Source: an uncultured Clostridia bacterium (lineage in GTDB: Bacteria > Bacillota > Clostridia > Christensenellales > Aristaeellaceae). From it: a stretch of 42,813 nt of DNA. Made by a program: the position numbers and the translations under genes. Location of the stretch: NCBI GenBank assembly GCA_944362695.1, contig CALVTQ010000150.1, forward strand, positions 1 to 42,813. The letters are read 5' to 3'. Of this stretch, positions 6,184 through 14,614 are shown one piece after another. Below the pieces are notes generated by a model, which was given only the letters and a program-made list of their open reading frames with translations, searched no databases and had not been told where the DNA came from. The first letter of the stretch is position 1. Each line of letters opens with the position of its first letter.

Positions 6184-6840
6184 TCAGCAGAACAGCAGAT
6201 CGAAATACTGATCGAAGACCTGACGGACGTTGCGGATATGCTGGGTCATCGCTTTCTCGGCCTTGCGCACGTCGCGCGCGGTGATGGCGGCGAGAATCTG
6301 CTCGTGCTCGTGCAGACCCTGTTCGCAGCGGCCCGGGATCAGGATGGTCTTGCTGTTGTATTTTCGCATCTGATCCTTGAGGTTGGTGATGATATCGACC
6401 ATCGTCTTGTTGGGGCAGACGTTATAGAGCACCTGATGAAACGCGCGGTTGCTCTTGGAATAGGCCTGAAGGTCGCCTTCGGCCTTGTGGCGGCGCATCT
6501 GTTCAAGCTGGTCGGACATGGCGTGAATCTGGGCGTCCGTGATCAACGGCAGCGAAAGGCGGATGAGCAGCCCCTCGAGCGTCTCGCGCACCTCGAGGTA
6601 TTCCAGCACCTCGCGCTTGGAATAGGCGCGAACCTTGGCGCCCTTGTTCTGTTCGATGGTGACAAGCCCCTCGCTTTCCAGCATGAGCAGCGCCTTTTTG
6701 ACGGTGTTGCGGCTCACGCCGTGCGCGGCGGCGAGCTCGGTTTCCGGCAGGCTCTCGGAGGGGGAGAAGCCGCCGTTGAGAATCTTTTCTTTCAATGCGG
6801 CGTAAACCATCGTCGTTTGTGTTGCGGCCAAAATGTTCAC
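6184..6840 (-). CDS. GntR family transcriptional regulator, FCD subfamily
   Basis: This is a DNA-binding repressor or activator that responds to a small acid. It is 218 residues with an N-terminal winged helix-turn-helix (about 8-75; ETELAAAHGVSRNTVKKALLMLESEGLV) and a C-terminal all-helical FCD ligand-binding domain (about 80-210) carrying the metal-site type histidines (AFHQVLYN, HEHEQILAAI, HIRNVRQVF). The longest frame begins at GTG 6840, but the purine-rich site AGAAAGAAG is then too close. TTG 6831 has better spacing, so the exact start is open. It is divergent from the amidohydrolase/TRAP operon, and the shared 300-base gap contains two matching palindromes of the type FCD regulators bind. 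It almost certainly controls that operon. FCD members commonly sense carboxylic acids, which fits the neighbours. Confidence 0.88.
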   Translation of the reverse strand: MNILAATQTTMVYAALKEKILNGGFSPSESLPETELAAAHGVSRNTVKKALLMLESEGLVTIEQNKGAKVRAYSKREVLEYLEVRETLEGLLIRLSLPLITDAQIHAMSDQLEQMRRHKAEGDLQAYSKSNRAFHQVLYNVCPNKTMVDIITNLKDQMRKYNSKTILIPGRCEQGLHEHEQILAAITARDVRKAEKAMTQHIRNVRQVFDQYFDLLFC

Positions 6841-6908
6841 TTCTTTCTGGGTTTAAATCATCGTATATAAATCGCAGCCTATACGACAATCAATAGATTC
6901 ACAGTTTT

Positions 6909-6937
6909 ATTGTACGGCATAGACAGGGGCTTGTCAA
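6909..6937 (-). promoter_or_regulatory. Sigma-A promoter of the GntR gene
   Basis: Read on the minus strand, TTGACA (6937-6932) and TACAAT (6914-6909) are separated by 17 bases. It faces the GntR gene and is back-to-back with the operon promoter at 7022-7050. Confidence 0.75.
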
Positions 6938-6976
6938 TTCATTAAACTGAAAAAAATGAACACAAAAGAAAGCATA

Positions 6977-6992
6977 ATTGTTGATCAATTTT
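6977..6992. promoter_or_regulatory. Operator-like site 1 for the GntR regulator
   Basis: ATTGTTGATCAATTTT is nearly the same as the perfect palindrome at 7064-7082 (shared pattern ATTGTTGAWCAATYTT). It lies between the two divergent promoters, about 40 bases upstream of the operon -35 box, a position suited to looping with site 2 or to autoregulation. Confidence 0.6.
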
Positions 6993-7021
6993 GTTAAAAA
7001 CATAGAAAAGCAAACTTTCCC

Positions 7022-7050
7022 TTGACAGCAGTGAAAACAACCTATATAAT
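7022..7050 (+). promoter_or_regulatory. Consensus sigma-A promoter of the amidohydrolase/TRAP operon
   Basis: TTGACA (7022-7027), 17 bases, TATAAT (7045-7050): both boxes match the consensus exactly. Such a strong promoter would be expected to need repression, and an operator palindrome covers the region just after the predicted start site. Confidence 0.88.
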
Positions 7051-7063
7051 AGTCACAGACCAC

Positions 7064-7082
7064 AAGATTGTTGAACAATCTT
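7064..7082. promoter_or_regulatory. Operator palindrome (site 2) for the GntR regulator
   Basis: AAGATTGTTGAACAATCTT is a perfect 9+1+9 palindrome centred on 7073. It contains TTGT-TGA-ACAA, matching the TNGTN3ACNA arrangement known for FCD-type GntR operators. It sits about 14-32 bases after the -10 box, so a bound regulator would block transcription of the operon. Confidence 0.75.
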
Positions 7083-7148
7083 GAATACAATTGCAAGTTA
7101 TTGCCATTAGAATAGCCAGAAAATTGTATAAAGAGGGGGACATTCACC

Positions 7149-8039
7149 ATGTTTGACACGAGAGAATTGATCTGCGGCGCTTACGATCTGCACGTGCATT
7201 CCGCGCCGGACGTGCTCGCGCGCAAGATGAATGACATCGAGATGGCGCAGCGCATCAAGGACAGCGGTATGGCGGGCTACGCGATCAAGAGCCACTATTT
7301 CTGCACGAGCGAGCGCGCCGAGCTGATCCGCACGATGTTCCCGGAGTGCGACGCCGTGGGCACGATGACGCTCAACTCCAGCGTCGGCGGCATCAACCCG
7401 TCCGCCGTGGAGATGGCGGCTCGCAGCGGCGCGAAGCTGATCTGGTTCCCGACGTGCGATTCCGCGCACGAGCGCAGCTATGTGCTCAGTGGCCAGTACA
7501 AGAAGCTGCCCTACTGGGCGACCATCGTGCAGGAGATGGCGGCGGACGGCAACGCGGCCCCGACGGTCTCCGTGCTCGATGAACACGGCGAGCTGACCGA
7601 GCAGGCGCACACCGTGCTGCGCGTGATGGCGAAATACAACCTGATTCTGGCGACGAGCCACATGAGCCACGAGGAGACCTTCGCGCTGGTGAAGGCGGCG
7701 GGCGAGGCTGGTGTCGGCAAGATCATCGTCACCCACGCCGACTTCCCGACCACGTTCTACACGGTGGAGGAGCAGAAGAAGCTGGTGGACATGGGCGCGT
7801 ACATCGAGCATTGCTACACCACATGGGCCACGGGCAAGATCGACCTTGACACGACCATCGACCAGATTCGCCGCATCGGTGTGGATCACGTCATACTGGC
7901 CACCGACCTTGGCCAGAAGACGGCCATCTACCCCGACGAGGGCATGCTGGCCTTCGCGACCAAGCTCTACGAGGCGGGCTTCAGCGCGGAGGACATCCGC
8001 AAGACGACGGTCTGTAACCCGAAGGCGCTGCTCAGATAA
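7149..8039 (+). CDS. DUF6282-type metal-dependent amidohydrolase
   Basis: This is a 296-residue protein of the metal-dependent hydrolase (amidohydrolase/PHP-like TIM barrel) group, probably DUF6282. Candidate metal ligands are His15 and His17 (DLHVHSAPD), Lys47-Ser48-His49, His171 and His174 (ATSHMSHE), His196 (VTHADFP) and Asp253 (ILATDLGQ). ATG 7149 has AGAGGGGG upstream. It is the first gene of the operon. In the known aromatic lower pathway the 2-pyrone-4,6-dicarboxylate lactonase LigI and the hydratase LigJ are amidohydrolase-superfamily enzymes, and the next gene here is GalB-like. A ring-opening or hydratase role on a polycarboxylic acid is therefore a reasonable inference, but this protein is not a close LigI and its reaction is unknown. 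Confidence 0.75.
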   Translation: MFDTRELICGAYDLHVHSAPDVLARKMNDIEMAQRIKDSGMAGYAIKSHYFCTSERAELIRTMFPECDAVGTMTLNSSVGGINPSAVEMAARSGAKLIWFPTCDSAHERSYVLSGQYKKLPYWATIVQEMAADGNAAPTVSVLDEHGELTEQAHTVLRVMAKYNLILATSHMSHEETFALVKAAGEAGVGKIIVTHADFPTTFYTVEEQKKLVDMGAYIEHCYTTWATGKIDLDTTIDQIRRIGVDHVILATDLGQKTAIYPDEGMLAFATKLYEAGFSAEDIRKTTVCNPKALLR

Positions 8040-8087
8040 AACGGAATGATCCCGCGCGAGTCGGGATGCGATAGAAGGAGGACAACC

Positions 8088-8828
8088 ATGATCGAGGGAA
8101 AGAAGATGCTGGTGGTCAGCGCGCACGCGGCGGATTACGTCTGGCGCAGCGGCGGCACGATTGCCAAATACATCAAGCACGGCGCGCAGGTTCACGTCGT
8201 GGTGCTCAGCTTCGGCGTGCGCGGCGAGAGCAACGACCTGTGGAAGAAGGAGGGCGCGACGGCGGAGAGCGTGAAGGCCGAGCGCTTTGCGGAGACGAAG
8301 GCGGCGGCCGGGATTCTGGGCATTGAGAACATCGAATTCTGGGATCTGCCGGACTACCCGATGTCGCCCGCGCTTGACGAGGCGGCGAGGCTGCGCATGG
8401 TCACCAAGATCCGCGAGGTCGCGCCGGACATCATCATCACGCACGACAAGAACGGCGAGGACGTGCTCAACCCCGACCACAACGCCGTCAGCCGCTTCGT
8501 GTTCGAATGCAGCATCCAGGCCAATTCCAACGGCGTGCGCATCGAGAACACGAAGACGACCAGACAGATGCGCCTGTTCGGTTTTGAGCCGCACCAGACG
8601 GAGCTCTCCCGCTTCGTGCCGGATCAGCTCGTGGACATCTCCGAGGTTTACGACCAGAAGGTCGAAGCGATGAAGTGCTTCAAGGCGCAGAAGCACCTGA
8701 TCGAGTATTACACGCAGCGCGCGTTCCTGCGCGGCAACCACCTGCGCCGCATCTCCGGCAACCAGACCTACAAATACGGCGAGAGCTTCTCCAGCGTATT
8801 CCCGGTTGCGGGCGACGAGCTTGTCTGA
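8088..8828 (+). CDS. PIG-L (LmbE-like) fold protein, GalB-type 4-oxalomesaconate hydratase-like
   Basis: This is a 246-residue PIG-L-superfamily zinc protein starting at ATG 8088 (GAAGGAGG upstream); the earlier in-frame ATG 8046 lacks a ribosome binding site. The usual deacetylase motif AHPDD is replaced by SAHAADYVWRSGG (His13, Asp16), which is how I remember the signature of GalB, the Pseudomonas 4-oxalomesaconate hydratase of gallate breakdown. NPDHNAV (His131), FEPHQTELSRF and RGNHLRRISG also fit GalB better than sugar deacetylases. GalB adds water to 4-oxalomesaconate to give 4-carboxy-4-hydroxy-2-oxoadipate, which a LigK/RraA-type aldolase splits; an RraA-type gene is three genes downstream. 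A related hydrolase of another acid is the main alternative. Confidence 0.7.
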   Translation: MIEGKKMLVVSAHAADYVWRSGGTIAKYIKHGAQVHVVVLSFGVRGESNDLWKKEGATAESVKAERFAETKAAAGILGIENIEFWDLPDYPMSPALDEAARLRMVTKIREVAPDIIITHDKNGEDVLNPDHNAVSRFVFECSIQANSNGVRIENTKTTRQMRLFGFEPHQTELSRFVPDQLVDISEVYDQKVEAMKCFKAQKHLIEYYTQRAFLRGNHLRRISGNQTYKYGESFSSVFPVAGDELV

Positions 8829-8879
8829 GGCAATGAACATCGCCAGACGATGTGAAGTAAAGAGTAAGGAGGCAAACAC

Positions 8880-9821
8880 ATGAAGAAGGTTATCACCCTG
8901 ATCCTGACCCTCTGCCTGCTGAACACGGCTGCGGCGCTCGCCGACGGCGTCGTCTTCGGCACGGCGGCCACCAGCGGCACGTACTACCAGGTGGGCGCGG
9001 CCATCGGTACGGCCGTGCAGAACGCGGGCGAGCTGCAGGTCAACGTCATCCCGACCGCCGGCTCCAACGAGAATGTGACGCTCGTGCAGACGATGGACAT
9101 CGACATCGGCATGGGCAATTCCGATGCGATTTACGGCGCGTACAACGGCGAGCTGACCTACGCCGACGTGGGCCCGCAGGCCATCGAGCAGGTCGCTGCG
9201 CTGTACTACTCCCAGATGCACATCTACACCAGGGCGGACAGCGGCATCCGCAGCATCGAGGACATGAAGGGCAAGCGCATCTGCGTCGGCTCTCAGGGCA
9301 CGAGCTGGCTGTACATGGTCAACGCCGTGCTGGAATACTACGGCATCACGCTTGACGACATCACGCCGTATTACATGAACTACGCCGAGTGCTCCGAGGC
9401 GCTGGCCAACGGCGACATCGACGCGGCCTTCCAGGTCGGCGGCTATCCGCTCTCCGGCATCCAGCAGTACGCGGCGACGACGAGCTTCTATTTCATCCCG
9501 CTGGAGGACGCCGTCATCGACGAGATGCTCAGCCGCTTCTCCTACGCGGTGAAGACCGCGATCCCGGCGGACGTCTATGAGAATCAGGCGAACACCGAGG
9601 AGATTCCCACGCTGGCGTACATGACGTGTCTGTTCTGCGGCGCGGACACCGACGACGACCTGATCTATGCCTTCACCAAGGGCATGATCGAGACCCTGCC
9701 GCAGTATCAGGACACCAACGTCGCTACGCGCCAGATCACGCCGGAGACCATCGCCACGGCGTTCATCCCGCTCAACGAGGGCGCGGAGCGCGCCTATCGC
9801 GAGGCCGGATTGATCGACTGA
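8880..9821 (+). CDS. TAXI-type TRAP transporter substrate-binding protein
   Basis: This is the extracytoplasmic binding subunit of a TRAP transporter of the TAXI class (313 residues). It has a signal peptide (about 1-21, MKKVITLILTLCLLNTAAALA) without a lipobox cysteine. The mature start, GVVFGTAATSGTYYQVGAAIGTAV, is the hallmark of the family, followed by PTAGSNENVTLVQTMDIDIGMGNSDAIYGAYNG and an IRSIEDMKGKRICVGSQGTSWLYMVNAVLEYYGI block. AAGGAGG is 6-8 bases upstream of ATG 8880. TAXI systems are known to take up glutamate, dicarboxylates and related acids. A terminator-like hairpin separates it from its permease gene. Confidence 0.9.
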   Translation: MKKVITLILTLCLLNTAAALADGVVFGTAATSGTYYQVGAAIGTAVQNAGELQVNVIPTAGSNENVTLVQTMDIDIGMGNSDAIYGAYNGELTYADVGPQAIEQVAALYYSQMHIYTRADSGIRSIEDMKGKRICVGSQGTSWLYMVNAVLEYYGITLDDITPYYMNYAECSEALANGDIDAAFQVGGYPLSGIQQYAATTSFYFIPLEDAVIDEMLSRFSYAVKTAIPADVYENQANTEEIPTLAYMTCLFCGADTDDDLIYAFTKGMIETLPQYQDTNVATRQITPETIATAFIPLNEGAERAYREAGLID

Positions 9822-9835
9822 TCATCGGCGACGCT

Positions 9836-9874
9836 GCGGGCGGCGGGCAACATCCTGCCTGCTGCCTGCTTTTT
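9836..9874 (+). terminator. Terminator-like hairpin between TRAP binding protein and permease
   Basis: GCGGGCGGCGGGC (9836-9848) pairs with GCCTGCTGCCTGC (9857-9869), 13 bp with three G-T pairs, followed by TTTTT. Because the permease gene follows at once, it probably acts as a partial terminator that lowers permease relative to binding protein. Confidence 0.75.
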
Positions 9875-9909
9875 GCGTCGCGATGCGTTTGAACGAAAGG
9901 AAGAAACCC

Positions 9910-12060
9910 ATGAGTGAAAAGACCATATCAATCGCACCTCGGGGCGGATTGGATAAGGCGCGTTTGGTGCTTTCCACACTGGTTGCCGTCGTGCTTTGCG
10001 TGTTTCATCTGCTCGCGGCATCGCCGTATCTGCTGCTGAACAACACGGAGCTGGCCGTCATCCACGGCATGCTCATCGTCACATTCTTCGTGCTCGTGCG
10101 CCCCTGTAAGGCGGAAACGCCGGATATGGCGCGCGCCGGCACGGGCAAATTCTTCGCGGGCGCGGCGATTGTCAGCGGCATCCTCTGCCTGCTGTTCGTC
10201 TTCCCGCCGGTCTTTGGCAAGTCCCCGTTCAATTCGGGGGAAAAGAACATCTTCGTGATGATCTTCGCCGTTTCCGCCGTGATGACGCTCCTGCATCTGG
10301 CGGCGCGCCGCAGCAAACCGCTCGGCAGCGCGCTGGGCAAGGCGGACGGCGTGCTCATGGTGCTGTATGATCTGGCGCTGATCGTGCTGACCGTGCTCAC
10401 GGCCATCGAGGTCATCCGCCTGCGCAACGCCAACAGCGCGAGCGCGACGCTGTACAGCCCGTATCAGTATTTCGTGATGATCACGTTCTCGGCCGTGGCG
10501 CTGGCGGTGGGCTATCGCGCGCTGGGCAGGATTCTGCCCTCGCTGTGCATCCTGTTCATCATATACGGCCTGTTCGGTCGCTACCTGCCGGGCATCTGGG
10601 AATGCGCGCGCATGTCGGTCAATCGCCTGGGGTCGTATCTGGCGATCAGCTCCGAGGGACTGTTCGGCAGCTCGCTGAGCACGGCGGCCAATTACATCTT
10701 CCTGTTTGTGCTCTTTGGCTCTGTGCTGAGCTTCATCGGCGCGGGCGAGTTCTTCGTGAAGATCTCGTTCGCGGCGTTTGGCCGCGTCTGCGGCGGACCG
10801 GCGCAGGCGGCGATTTACTCGAGCATGCTCATGGGCATGGTCAACGGCTCCGGCGCGGCCAACGTGGTGACCACCGGCACGTTCACCATCCCGCTGATGA
10901 AGCGCACGGGCTTTGACCCGGACACCGCGGGCGCTGTGGAGGCCGTGGCATCCAACGGCGGACAGATCATGCCGCCGGTCATGGGCGCCGTGGCGTTCCT
11001 GATGGCGGATGCGACGGGCTTCTCCTATGCCAATGTCTGCACGGCCGCGCTCATCCCCGCCGTGCTGTATTACCTGACGCTCTCGGTCTCCGTGCTGGCG
11101 TATTCCCACAAGAACAAGATTCCCGTGCGTCAGCCGAGCCCGGAGGACGAGACCATTGGCCAGATTTTCCGTCAGGGCTGGTATTACTTCGTGCCGATCC
11201 TCATGCTGATTGCGATGATGGTCATGGGCTACAGCACCAAGCGCGCCGCGCTGATCACCATCATCGTGAGCCTGGTCATCGGCCTGATCACCGACAGAAA
11301 GAAATTCACCGCAAAGAATTTGATCGACCTGTGCGTGCAGTCCGCCAAGTCGATGATGACGGTCTCCATCGCCTGCATGATCGCGGGCATCATCGTCGGC
11401 GCGATCAACGTCACCGGCTTTGGCCTGAAGATCTCCGGCCTGATCGCCGCGATTTCTGGCGGCAGCGTGCTGGTGATGGGCATCCTCACGGCGCTGGTCT
11501 GCATCCTGCTGGGCATGGGTCTGCCGACCTCAGCGTGCTACATCGTGCTGTCCATCCTCATCGCGCCCGCGATGGTGGAAATCGGCGTCTCCCTGCCGGC
11601 GGCGCATCTGTTCGTGCTGTATTACGGCGTCATCGCCGCGATCACCCCGCCGGTTGCGCTGGCCGTCTTCGCGGCAATCGGCATTTCCGGCGGCGAGATG
11701 TGGAAGACCGGCCTTCAGGCGATGAAGCTGGCCATATCCGGCCTGCTGATCCCGTTCGTCTTCCTGTGGAACAACGACCTGCTGCTGTATAATCCGGCGA
11801 CGATGAGCTTTGGCATGAGCCCGATCGTGCTGCTGAGCGTGGTGACGGCGTTCATGGGCTGCTCGATCATCGGTCTGGCGCTGTTTGGCTGGTGCGGCCG
11901 CGACCTGAAGATGGCCGAGCGCATCATCCTGATCCCGTGCTCGATCTTCCTGATGATGAATGAACCGCTGTGGCTCAACGGCGTCGGCTTTGTCATCGCC
12001 GCGCTCGTGCTGGGCAAGGCCGTTCTGGACAGGAAAAACGCGAGGAGGGCTGCTGTATGA
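9910..12060 (+). CDS. TRAP transporter permease, 4TM/12TM fusion
   Basis: This is the membrane subunit of the TAXI-TRAP system, with DctQ-like and DctM-like parts fused in one chain (716 residues from ATG 9910, AAAGGAAG upstream; the ATG at 9883 has no site). The N-terminal third has the small-subunit-like helices. The DctM part carries the conserved GSGAANVVTTGTFTIPLMKRTGF, ASNGGQIMPPVMGAVAFLMA and LLGMGLPTSACYIVLSILIAPAMVEIGV blocks. TRAP transport is driven by an ion gradient (Na+ in studied cases) rather than ATP. Its stop codon overlaps the start of the RraA-type gene by 4 bases (ATGA), so the two are translationally coupled and the aldolase probably acts on the imported compound or its product. 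Confidence 0.92.
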   Translation: MSEKTISIAPRGGLDKARLVLSTLVAVVLCVFHLLAASPYLLLNNTELAVIHGMLIVTFFVLVRPCKAETPDMARAGTGKFFAGAAIVSGILCLLFVFPPVFGKSPFNSGEKNIFVMIFAVSAVMTLLHLAARRSKPLGSALGKADGVLMVLYDLALIVLTVLTAIEVIRLRNANSASATLYSPYQYFVMITFSAVALAVGYRALGRILPSLCILFIIYGLFGRYLPGIWECARMSVNRLGSYLAISSEGLFGSSLSTAANYIFLFVLFGSVLSFIGAGEFFVKISFAAFGRVCGGPAQAAIYSSMLMGMVNGSGAANVVTTGTFTIPLMKRTGFDPDTAGAVEAVASNGGQIMPPVMGAVAFLMADATGFSYANVCTAALIPAVLYYLTLSVSVLAYSHKNKIPVRQPSPEDETIGQIFRQGWYYFVPILMLIAMMVMGYSTKRAALITIIVSLVIGLITDRKKFTAKNLIDLCVQSAKSMMTVSIACMIAGIIVGAINVTGFGLKISGLIAAISGGSVLVMGILTALVCILLGMGLPTSACYIVLSILIAPAMVEIGVSLPAAHLFVLYYGVIAAITPPVALAVFAAIGISGGEMWKTGLQAMKLAISGLLIPFVFLWNNDLLLYNPATMSFGMSPIVLLSVVTAFMGCSIIGLALFGWCGRDLKMAERIILIPCSIFLMMNEPLWLNGVGFVIAALVLGKAVLDRKNARRAAV

Positions 12061-12755
12061 TGAATCCCTGTGCGCCGCTTTTGCCCGACGAGGTGATCAG
12101 CCGGGCCCAGAAGCTCAACGTGCCGCTCGTTCTGGACGGCGTCAAGGCCGCCGGCATCGACATCCCCAACGGCGGATGCATGGACATGGAGATCATGCCC
12201 GTGGAGCGCGGCATGACGGTCGTGGGCACGGCGATGACCGTGGAGACGGCCAACGGCGACAATTTCCCGATTCACGTGGCGTCCTATTCCGTCAAGGAGG
12301 ACGGCTATGTGATGGTGATCGACGGCAAGGGCTACAAGGGCCGCGCGTATTTCGGCGACCTGATCATGGGCGCTTGCCAGGCGGCGGGCTTTAAGGGCAT
12401 GGTGGTGGATGGCTGCACGCGCGACCGCGACGGCAACATCGAGCTGGGCTTCCCCGTGTACAGCCGCGGCTTCATGCCGCGCGGCCCGATCAAAAAGGAC
12501 GAGGGCAGCATCAACACGCCGATCATGTGCGGAGGCGTGCGGGTCGAGCCGGGCGATCTGGTCATGGGCGACAGCGACGGCGTCTGCGTGATTCCGCGCG
12601 CGCACATCGAGACCGTGCTCGCCGAGGCGGAGAAGAAGCTCGCCTACGAGAACAAGCGCAACGAGACCATCGCGGCATACCGCAAGGCCAAGGCCGAGGG
12701 CGGCGAGCTGCCGCAGCTGGCGCCCAAGTGGGTGCTGGATATGCTCGGACGCTGA
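12057..12755 (+). CDS. RraA-family aldolase/decarboxylase (LigK/HMG-CHA aldolase-like)
   Basis: This 232-residue protein belongs to the RraA superfamily, whose catalytic members are divalent-metal class II aldolases that split 4-hydroxy-4-methyl-2-oxoglutarate or 4-carboxy-4-hydroxy-2-oxoadipate to pyruvate plus a keto acid, and decarboxylate oxaloacetate. The catalytic segment is GDLIMGACQAAGFKGMVVDG followed by CTRDRDGN: Asp118, Arg122 and Asp123 are the expected metal and substrate ligands, which argues for an enzyme rather than an RNase E inhibitor. PVYSRGFMPRGPIK and GVRVEPGDLVMGDSDGVCVIPR also fit. The start is ATG 12057 with AGGAGG 8 bases upstream and a 4-base overlap with the TRAP permease. 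With the GalB-like protein it gives a hydratase-aldolase pair as in gallate/protocatechuate 4,5-cleavage pathways. Confidence 0.85.
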   Translation: MMNPCAPLLPDEVISRAQKLNVPLVLDGVKAAGIDIPNGGCMDMEIMPVERGMTVVGTAMTVETANGDNFPIHVASYSVKEDGYVMVIDGKGYKGRAYFGDLIMGACQAAGFKGMVVDGCTRDRDGNIELGFPVYSRGFMPRGPIKKDEGSINTPIMCGGVRVEPGDLVMGDSDGVCVIPRAHIETVLAEAEKKLAYENKRNETIAAYRKAKAEGGELPQLAPKWVLDMLGR

Positions 12756-12778
12756 GCATTTCCCTGATCCCCCTTCGT

Positions 12779-12819
12779 GGCCTGCATCGCCCGACGAGAC
12801 GGCGCTGCAGGCCCGTTTT
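12779..12819 (+). terminator. Terminator after the RraA-type gene
   Basis: GGCCTGCA (12779-12786) pairs with TGCAGGCC (12806-12813), with an inner CGCC/GGCG helix, followed by CGTTTT. The T tract is short, so read-through into the AEC gene 40 bases further on is likely. Confidence 0.6.
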
Positions 12820-12858
12820 CTATGGCGCGGCAAAGGAGCCGCGAAAGGAGGAACGGAT

Positions 12859-13809
12859 ATGATCGACAGCTTTTACGCGGCCCTGAACGCCGTCGTGCCC
12901 TTCCTTTGCTATCTGGCGCTGGGCTATGCGTCGCGACGCGCGGGCATCGTGGACGAGCCGTTTCTGAACAGGCTGACACGGCTCATCTTCGCCGTCATGT
13001 TCCCGTTCATGACGTTTTACAACATCTATCAGGGCGAGCGCGGCAATCTGCCCAGCCCGGCGCTGCTGATCTTCTGTGGCGCGTCGATCCTGATCGTGCA
13101 GGGCGTGCTGCTGTTTATCGTCCCGCGCATGGTGCGGGAAAACAGCCGCCGCGGCGTCATCATACAGGCGATATACCGCAGCAATTTCGTGCTGTTCGGC
13201 CTGCCTCTGACGGCGTCGCTCTTTGGCGAGGAAAAGACGGGCATCGCGGCCATGCTGGTGACGGTCGTCATCACGATATACAACATCACGTCCGTCATCA
13301 TCCTTGAGATGTTCAACGACGCGAGCGCCGGCCGCATCCGGCCCGGCCCGCTGCTGGTCAAGCTGGCGAAAAATCCGATGCTGCAAGGCTGCTGCGTCGG
13401 CCTGATCTTCTATGCGCTGGGCGTGCGCCTGCCCGCCGCCATCGAGAAGCCCATCAGCGAATTCGCGGGGATGACGTCGCCTCTGGCGCTCTTTGCGCTG
13501 GGCGGCACGCTGCGCTTTGAGGCGATTGCCAAAAACGCACGCACGCTCGCGGCGGCGCTGTCGGTCAAGCTCGTGTTCCTGCCGCTCGTCCTCGTCGCCG
13601 CGGCGTATGCGCTGGGCCTGCGCGATGTCGAGCTGTTCCTCGTGCTGGCGGTCTTCGCCACGCCGGTGGCTTCCGGCTCCTATCCGATGGCGCAGAACAT
13701 GGGCGGCGACGGCGAGCTCGCCGGTCAATTCGTGTTCCTGAGCACGGCGGCGTCCGTCGTCACGCTCTTTGTCTGGATCTTCGCGCTGCGGCAGATGGGA
13801 TGGATTTGA
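12859..13809 (+). CDS. AEC (auxin efflux carrier) family transporter
   Basis: This is a 316-residue membrane carrier of the AEC family, about ten membrane segments, starting at ATG 12859 after AAAGGAGG. Recognisable parts are the N-terminal VVPFLCYLALGYASRRAGIVDEPFLNRLTRLIFAVMFPFMTFYNI repeat half, QAIYRSNFVLFGLPL, and the matching C-terminal repeat half (TPVASGSYPMAQNMGGDGELAGQFVFLSTAASVVTLF). Bacterial AEC members include malate and other organic-acid permeases (MleP type). It follows the catabolic operon by 100 bases across a weak terminator, so it may export an acid end product or take up a related acid. The substrate is not visible from sequence. Confidence 0.88.
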   Translation: MIDSFYAALNAVVPFLCYLALGYASRRAGIVDEPFLNRLTRLIFAVMFPFMTFYNIYQGERGNLPSPALLIFCGASILIVQGVLLFIVPRMVRENSRRGVIIQAIYRSNFVLFGLPLTASLFGEEKTGIAAMLVTVVITIYNITSVIILEMFNDASAGRIRPGPLLVKLAKNPMLQGCCVGLIFYALGVRLPAAIEKPISEFAGMTSPLALFALGGTLRFEAIAKNARTLAAALSVKLVFLPLVLVAAAYALGLRDVELFLVLAVFATPVASGSYPMAQNMGGDGELAGQFVFLSTAASVVTLFVWIFALRQMGWI

Positions 13810-13827
13810 CGTGCGCGGCGGATTTTC

Positions 13828-13861
13828 GAAGGCTCCCGCTTGGCGGGGGTCTTCCTTTTTT
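13828..13861 (+). terminator. Rho-independent terminator after the AEC gene
   Basis: GAAGGCTCCCGC (13828-13839) pairs with GCGGGGGTCTTC (13843-13854), 12 bp with two G-T pairs and a 3-base loop, followed by six T residues. It closes the whole amidohydrolase-TRAP-AEC region. Confidence 0.85.
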
Positions 13862-14084
13862 GTGGGGGAGAGCGAAGGCCGGTGTGCAGGAAAAGAGGGC
13901 GGCTTTGCCTCGGATCAGGGTCAATGCCGCCGTTGCGTCAATGCGCGCATCGTCGAGCGATCATTTTGACCACGCGCGGCAGAAATACAAAGCGACCCTC
14001 CCGCCGGCGTTCTGCGCTGCGGCGGACGGGTCGTCGTTTGCTGTCCGTCTTTTGGTGGGCGGACTGCATTTTTGTTATGTTCAG

Positions 14085-14573
14085 TGCATCAAAGCAGCTT
14101 TTACACCTTATCACAACGCGCTCCAAACCATTTCAAACGAAGTAAAAGCCTTCGGCGGCAGCGGAAATATACACGGCTGTATTGTCGATATTGATTTTTA
14201 CAATCACATCTACTTAAACCTCTATGACGCAAAAATAACGCCCTATTTTGCATGGGACACGGTTCAAAAAGTAGCGTTTCCCAACATGCGAGATCTGCTT
14301 GAAAACTCTCCCGTGCCACCTCAGCTTCCTAACGGTACGCCCATGCTGAATCGTTTTATTTCCTGCTGCAAGCCGGAAACACTCCCAATCTTATCTCGGA
14401 AAAAGCGCATGAAAGCTGCAAAAGTGCCCGAAATCGTTTTGGATACTTCCATGTATGAACCCAATCGTGCCATGCGCTCGATTCAGTATATATTCGATCA
14501 AGATGTCATTCGCATTTGGCGCGACGAAATACTTACGATGTCACCGGTCCAAAGCATTAAGGCTCTCCCTTAA
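14085..14573 (+). pseudogene. 5'-truncated hypothetical protein fragment in an AT-rich patch
   Basis: About 160 codons read as an intact C-terminal piece (NALQTISNEVKAFGGSGNIHG, CIVDIDFYNHIYLNLYDAKI, TPYFAWDTVQ, ending SPVQSIKALP). The frame stays open upstream to 13800, but that part (13800-14080) lies over the AEC terminator and is GC-rich with no protein-like character, so no credible start exists. Base composition falls sharply to AT-rich from about 14090. I recall similar GSGxIHGCIVDIDF segments in unnamed proteins of gut Firmicutes but know no function. It is best read as the remnant of an acquired gene. No transposase or integrase is nearby. Confidence 0.55.
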
Positions 14574-14614
14574 ATAAAATAAGTTTGTCTTATACCAATT
14601 ATTTCAGGGACAAG

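Follow-up and report, generated by a model that had tools for sequence, protein, structure and literature searches.

On plasmid p4 of Azospirillum argentinense (L064), a protocatechuate/gallate cluster places a GalB-type gene next to a LigK gene, together with a tautomerase, a LigI-type amidohydrolase and a LigAB-type dioxygenase. GalB of Pseudomonas putida (PDB: 5cgz) belongs to the PIG-L family and is recognized by His, Asp and His metal ligands and by a catalytic Glu and His. In a 2016 study, an alanine reportedly replaces the base of the deacetylases, and Glu-48 and His-164 are said to be the catalytic residues. The aldolase LigK/GalC (PDB: 3noj) acts on 4-hydroxy-4-methyl-2-oxoglutarate (HMG) as well as on 4-carboxy-4-hydroxy-2-oxoadipate (CHA); Arg-123 is essential to it, the metal is bound by Asp-124 and Glu-199, and the pocket includes Asn-71, His-75 and Lys-147 (PMC5065237). 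Here we describe a related gene set in an uncultured Clostridia bacterium. The window, by which we mean the whole stretch of 42,813 nucleotides analysed, is contig CALVTQ010000150.1 (C150) of a draft genome whose assembly comprises 2,929,123 bases in 174 contigs, with completeness given as 83.3%. Positions 7149-12755 encode a DUF6282 protein, a GalB-type PIG-L protein, a TAXI-TRAP importer and an RraA-type aldolase. From gene content, conservation, catalytic residues and operator sequence, we infer that this locus is probably a self-contained, regulated catabolic unit, which would import an acid, optionally open it, hydrate it and cleave it by a retro-aldol reaction.

The PIG-L protein (8088-8828, forward strand; PF02585, 94.9 bits) carries the motif SAHAADYVWRSGG at residues 11-23, the signature in which an earlier, sequence-only reading of this DNA had recognized GalB. 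Its best solved relative is GalB 5cgz (162.9 bits, E 9e-47), and it shares 42% identity with the P. putida protein; the next solved relative, and the best deacetylase, is MshB of the mycothiol pathway with 38.7 bits. The grouping with GalB, which that reading had left to be decided against the sugar deacetylases, is borne out by the residues. We aligned 27 GalB-type rows (the window, 19 loci from named genomes, genomes G008, G168 and G349, Thermus, two proteobacterial plasmids and P. putida GalB), and H13, A15, D16, E47, H131 and H169 are identical in all of them. Three other PIG-L proteins of the same class carry an HPDD motif, differ at positions 47 and 169, and show the HxAD pattern in 0/3 cases. 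The general-base position of the deacetylases is accordingly Ala in 27/27 GalB-type rows and Asp in 3/3 of the others, and R20, R45, Y207, Y208, R215 and R221 are constant in 27/27 rows and found in none of the three. On the 5cgz alignment, E47 and H169 correspond to chain residues 44 and 160, in each case four below Glu-48 and His-164, which fits the roles reported for that pair. The family tree agrees with a GalB-type group and places the clostridial proteins on a separate branch; its outgroup branches are very long (about 10) and the outer split is weak (90/68), so the assignment leans on scores and residues instead. As judged from these, the PIG-L protein is GalB-like and not a deacetylase, and it is the proposed hydratase of a 4-oxalomesaconate-like acid.

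The gene set named by the sequence-only reading was recovered in full, with every family profile matching at its place, and it recurs in other genomes. A scan of named genomes returned 19 loci whose proteins are 66-87% identical to that of the window, in Clostridia (including Hungatella hathewayi), Veillonella sp. KGMB01456 and a Spirochaetia bacterium. DUF6282 adjoins the GalB-type gene at 19/19 of these, and RraA is present at 15/19, the other four running off the contig. With the window, G008, G168, G349 and four Negativicutes genomes included, the number of GalB-type loci rises to 27; this set excludes the Thermus, proteobacterial plasmid and Alicyclobacillus copies, the first two of which are among the 27 residue rows, and includes the four Negativicutes loci, which are not. 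DUF6282 is adjacent at 24 of the 27 loci and RraA is present at 22, all five misses lying at contig ends. This recurrence indicates that the gene set is not a product of chance. Counting the window's or the centre's own genome in each case, GalB-type genes occur in 3/60 relatives, in 3/391 genomes of the class when at least 63% identity is required (three further weak PIG-L matches stand at about 30%), and in 5/250 genomes of the class of Veillonella. DUF6282 exceeds its cut-off in 13/391 genomes of the class, 10 of which are without a GalB-type gene.

The RraA-type protein (12060-12755, forward strand, with its start at 12057 or 12060; PF03737, 130.7 bits) has the HMG/CHA aldolase 3noj as its best solved relative (111 bits, 34% identity to the 3noj stretch). 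R121, D122, E197, N68 and H72 align with Arg-123, Asp-124, Glu-199, Asn-71 and His-75 of that enzyme, and all five are invariant in nine rows and also in ten partly different rows. The Arg122/Asp123 pair, previously called intact, is found at residues 122/123 when counted from 12057 and at 121/122 when counted from 12060. At 12057, an in-frame ATG shares bases with the permease stop codon (12058-12060), confirming in the reading frames the ATGA overlap by which the two genes were said to be coupled. On this alignment, we call the protein an RraA-type class II pyruvate aldolase with the catalytic residues of HMG/CHA aldolase; it differs from LigK/GalC in its low identity, in its profile scores (below) and in the linkage of its gene to an importer.

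The importer consists of a TAXI-type solute-binding protein (8880-9821, forward strand; TIGR02122, 248.9 bits) and a fused TRAP permease (about 9913-12060, forward strand, with a possible start at 9883; TIGR02123, 544 bits; PF06808, 275 bits), both above their TIGR cut-offs for TAXI-TRAP membership. The closest described system is VcGluPQM of Vibrio cholerae, which shares the binding-protein family. The window protein matches 8s4j with 116 bits. We take this entry to be the V. cholerae TAXI protein, since it is named in the paper and agrees in residue offset. There, the side chains of Y45, Q93 and E125 hold the amino group of glutamate, and only the changes Y45A and Q93A cut affinity severely (PMC11574862). 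Aligned with 8s4j, the window protein keeps Y45 and S75, whereas Q93 is replaced by N, E125 by Q and Y200 by Q. Among the 20 TAXI proteins from GalB-type loci, position 93 is N in all; at position 125, 17 have Q, three have A and none has Glu; position 45 is F in 12, Y in seven and A in one. The changed contacts suggest a ligand other than glutamate, perhaps one without an amino group. Across the 27 loci, a TAXI-TRAP importer stands beside the core at 20 (two contigs end inside the binding-protein gene), DASS importers at two (L055, L097), TTT importers at two (L059, L095) and an SDF importer at one (L098); none was seen at L060, where the contig ends, or at L096. At L039 (3909-5018), a mandelate racemase/muconate lactonizing-type gene lies beside the TRAP genes of the G008 cluster, and its enzyme is perhaps an extra entry step for substrate.

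The DUF6282 protein (7149-8039, forward strand; PF19799, 229 bits) is the proposed lactone or ring opener. Its structural model, predicted from 15 sequences with a mean predicted local distance difference test score of 87.9, is an amidohydrolase-type barrel. Fold searches with this model gave best TM-scores of 0.60-0.63 at large root-mean-square deviations (rmsd), the matches comprising a phosphotriesterase homology protein (TM 0.60, rmsd 10.7), dipeptidases, TatD and dihydroorotase. H15, H17, H171, H196 and D253, present in 14 of the 15 rows, occupy the positions at which enzymes of the amidohydrolase superfamily hold metal; barrel, HxH motif and further His and Asp ligands are all predicted in the model. 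A Pfam scan matched PF19799 alone and not Amidohydro_2 (PF04909), the family of LigI, and no sequence relative was found in the PDB. DUF6282 therefore appears to form a family other than LigI, which may fill the same functional slot. No paper naming DUF6282 was found in the literature searched.

Further copies and neighbours of DUF6282 were noted in the survey. Distant genes, about 31% identical, lie near cupin-like and HpcH/HpaI-aldolase-like frames at L077 (7031-10251) and L104 (3609-5661); these frames were judged by eye from their first residues, and DUF6282 may here again adjoin a pyruvate aldolase. At L083 (6015-12904), a distant copy belongs to a TAXI-TRAP cluster that also encodes an HMGL/homocitrate-synthase-like enzyme and an aldehyde ferredoxin oxidoreductase. 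In Veillonella sp. KGMB01456, a LigI-type amidohydrolase (L055, 15450-16262; 85 bits to LigI, 215 bits to a putative pyrone dicarboxylate hydrolase) lies near a DUF6282-GalB-RraA-DASS set and adjoins a MatC-type carrier.

The aerobic parallels differ from this locus in the oxygen step. The host is presumably an anaerobe, as its clostridial kin suggest. Among the ten neighbouring window proteins scanned, neither a tautomerase nor a dioxygenase was present, and the LigI-type amidohydrolase of the Azospirillum cluster has no counterpart there either. A search for the LigB family, which did not cover type I extradiol enzymes, found no such gene in the 83% complete window genome, nor in six of the nine further cluster genomes. 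The proposed lack of a dioxygenase is supported to that extent; the remaining three genomes have LigB-family genes, on other contigs than the cluster. Two of these genomes have DOPA dioxygenase-like proteins, one over and one under the model cut-off, and one of them a second, weaker match; the protein of the third reaches 156 bits to PF02900 and only weakly resembles any named dioxygenase. On plasmid pTHEOS01 of Thermus oshimai, the gene order is catechol 2,3-dioxygenase, GntR, DUF6282, PIG-L, an aldolase annotated as LigK and a DUF1932 dehydrogenase, with a 4-hydroxybenzoate 3-monooxygenase near the DUF6282-PIG-L-LigK genes. Together, the Thermus and Azospirillum contexts place DUF6282 near the slot held by LigI.

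Upstream of the operon, a GntR/FCD-family regulator is encoded divergently (6184-6840, reverse strand; PF00392, 67 bits; PF07729, 113 bits). The intergenic region contains a sigma-70-like promoter toward the operon (7022-7050, forward strand; TTGACA-17-TATAAT, 12/12), followed by the palindromic operator ATTGTTGAACAAT (7067-7079), a probable GntR site within a 19-bp palindrome. A second sigma-70-like promoter faces the GntR gene (6909-6937, reverse strand; TTGACA-17-TACAAT, 11/12), and a second operator-like copy, ATTGTTGATCAAT, with one mismatch, lies at 6977-6989. Within 6800-14600, five promoter-like sites were counted against a shuffle mean of 2.7, and 7022-7050 is the sole 12/12 site.

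A divergent GntR regulator neighbours 15 of the 19 named loci, and two of the other four begin at a contig end. We surveyed the operator in 16 GntR-DUF6282 intergenic regions, those of the window and these 15 loci, the other four having no such region. The palindrome occurs with at most two mismatches in 16/16, a looser count without shuffle control, and the exact core TTGTTSAACAA in 14/16, compared with 1 of 3200 base-shuffled regions; as this shuffle is mononucleotide, it is a rough control. In 12/16 loci (two of which, L057 and L058, are near copies of each other), an operator copy begins 12-21 bases past the end of the best-scoring -10 box, which is the position of a repressor site, and the GntR/FCD regulator likely represses the operon. 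The exact 13-mer is a single site in the 2.93 Mb assembly of the window. In four of six other cluster genomes it again occurs once, at the cluster, and in two it is absent, so that a search of seven genomes for a wider regulon that might reveal upstream enzymes gave no further sites. With at most one mismatch, two copies are present in the Alicyclobacillus plasmid locus and two in one Negativicutes locus, and none in L055, L039, L061, L075, L076 or L098. From these counts, the regulator seems dedicated to this gene set in part of the family. The Alicyclobacillus copy (L062), a GntR-DUF6282-PIG-L locus with two perfect operator copies, resides on an A. dauci plasmid with Cas12b genes; its GntR and PIG-L genes are each annotated or matched in pieces, PIG-L in two, and no RraA match was present within the two stretches examined.

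With its consensus promoter and operator, 7149-12755 looks like a single transcription unit, and the unit is larger than previously described. In addition to the divergent regulator and the promoter-operator region (7022-7079), it includes an AEC-family permease (12859-13809, forward strand; PF03547, 103.6 bits), probably its last gene, and a terminator-like hairpin of 12 pairs with a T-run 3' of that gene (13828-13854, forward strand). The AEC permease is optional in relatives, with tblastn matches at 5/19 named loci. Terminator-like sites number 16 within 6800-14600, against a shuffle mean of 6.0. A strong hairpin of 14 pairs with a T-run lies between the binding-protein and permease genes (9836-9869, forward strand); as an attenuator, it would possibly yield more binding protein than permease.

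For the constant pair of GalB-type and RraA-type genes, beside importers of four carboxylate families, the most economical reading is import followed by hydration and retro-aldol cleavage. We postulate that a compound, presumably a polycarboxylate, would enter through the TAXI-TRAP importer, and that a lactone or pyrone form would be opened by the DUF6282 protein, a step that some species could skip. The GalB-type enzyme would hydrate the enol or unsaturated 2-oxo acid so formed, either 4-oxalomesaconate or a near analogue. From the 4-hydroxy-2-oxo acid, the RraA-type class II aldolase would release pyruvate together with another oxo-acid, which would be oxaloacetate if the substrate is CHA. 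Candidate substrates of the unit may include 2-pyrone-4,6-dicarboxylate, 4-oxalomesaconate or an analogue. At its palindromic operator, the GntR regulator would block the promoter until an inducer appears.

Relative to the lower 4-oxalomesaconate pathway on an imported acid, as proposed in the sequence-only reading, the GalB-type enzyme, the aldolase residues and the importer stand, and a number of observations weigh on the other side. The RraA-type protein was taken as a LigK-type aldolase, yet it reaches neither LigK equivalog cut-off (143.6 against 179 bits and 131.3 against 304.5 bits) and may therefore act on a different substrate. Both cut-offs are also missed by the Hungatella and Veillonella copies; two proteobacterial LigK proteins exceed 360 on each model, and the Thermus copy passes the lower cut-off alone. 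We therefore name the protein an RraA-type pyruvate aldolase and not LigK. A relationship of DUF6282 to LigI was not supported: a comparison with two LigI-type proteins, based on shallow alignments, gave an hhalign probability of 1.6% (E 0.031), and LigI and LigJ are absent among the best 50 of 153 fold matches (E up to 0.001). With no link from fold matches or profiles, membership of DUF6282 in LigI was rejected. Nor is DUF6282 constant. The three loci without an adjacent copy are all from Negativicutes (L095, L097, L098); in the whole genome of one of them no DUF6282 was found, and the other two genomes carry a distant copy elsewhere, 29-32% identical to that of the window, which means that the pathway does not include ring opening in every case. 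In the exceptional DUF6282 row, from an Oscillospiraceae locus (L059, 9026-9916), two of the predicted metal ligands are gone (171 is N and 196 is L), and the reaction of this protein is perhaps metal-free or lost. TAXI proteins at DUF6282 loci without GalB are also without Q93 and E125 (3/3); the change is thus not special to the GalB cluster, and this control is not clean. In addition, E125A is not one of the two severe changes in VcGluP (PMC11574862). The aerobic parallel is weakened by T. oshimai, which is reported to decarboxylate protocatechuate to catechol in a 2021 study cited in PMC10815724.

Hydration and aldol chemistry could be kept on another substrate outside the 4-oxalomesaconate set, for instance a dicarboxylate like 4-methylene-2-oxoglutarate, converted to HMG and then to two pyruvates, or a plant lactone acid. 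SDF and DASS importers, found at some of the loci, also take dicarboxylates. The clostridial aldolases score under the LigK cut-offs, and HMG/CHA aldolase takes both HMG and CHA (PMC5065237). Against these stand the six Arg and Tyr residues shared by all GalB-type rows including P. putida GalB and by none of the other PIG-L proteins, which suggest a GalB-like kind of substrate; we regard a different substrate as unlikely, though worth keeping in view. A cluster handling an acetylated compound, in which PIG-L would deacetylate an N-acetyl sugar or thiol conjugate and RraA would be a non-enzymatic regulator, is very improbable. It would suit the PIG-L annotation and the 73.6 bits of the NCBIfam BshB1 model, which remain under the cut-off of 182.5; the alanine at the general-base position, the 163 bits to GalB and the retained aldolase residues of RraA all speak for a different chemistry. 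The PIG-L protein as a sugar deacetylase was rejected on that alanine and on the GalB residues in 27/27 rows.

The reaction of DUF6282 is the least secure step of the proposed pathway. The protein could be another kind of enzyme, such as a decarboxylase, isomerase or amidase of the amidohydrolase fold, and supply GalB with its substrate; we give this a serious chance, somewhat short of even. The nearest folds are generic, and other DUF6282 genes lie beside the HpcH/HpaI-aldolase-like frames, the HMGL-type synthase and the TRAP genes described above, whereas the plasmid contexts in Thermus and Alicyclobacillus, and the position that DUF6282 usually takes before GalB, would suit a lactonase, on grounds of position alone. 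As this alternative concerns one step alone, it is compatible with the remaining import, hydration and retro-aldol steps of the regulated unit that we favour.

In the literature searched, no paper was found that joins oxalomesaconate, anaerobic and TRAP transporter, or 2-pyrone-4,6-dicarboxylate with faeces and metabolomics. Papers joining oxalomesaconate and gut describe no such pathway in their titles and abstract openings, and passages of one of them concern E. coli ybhH. A wider picture, which we put forward tentatively and with more doubt than confidence, is that gut and rumen anaerobes use this mobile, single-operator set to eat acids of the 2-pyrone-4,6-dicarboxylate or 4-oxalomesaconate type from oxygen-using neighbours or plants, and that DUF6282 is a new lactonase not related to LigI. 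If so, half of an aerobic aromatic pathway would operate in organisms incapable of its oxygen step, and the last steps of gallate and protocatechuate breakdown would exist alone in anaerobes of herbivore and human guts, indicating an unrecognised cross-feeding or dietary acid. DUF6282 would gain its first testable function, and the deacetylase-style annotation of this PIG-L branch would be corrected. As a whole, if confirmed, the locus may represent a new kind of food chain, in which the last two enzyme types of the aerobic tannin and lignin pathway work without the oxygen step.

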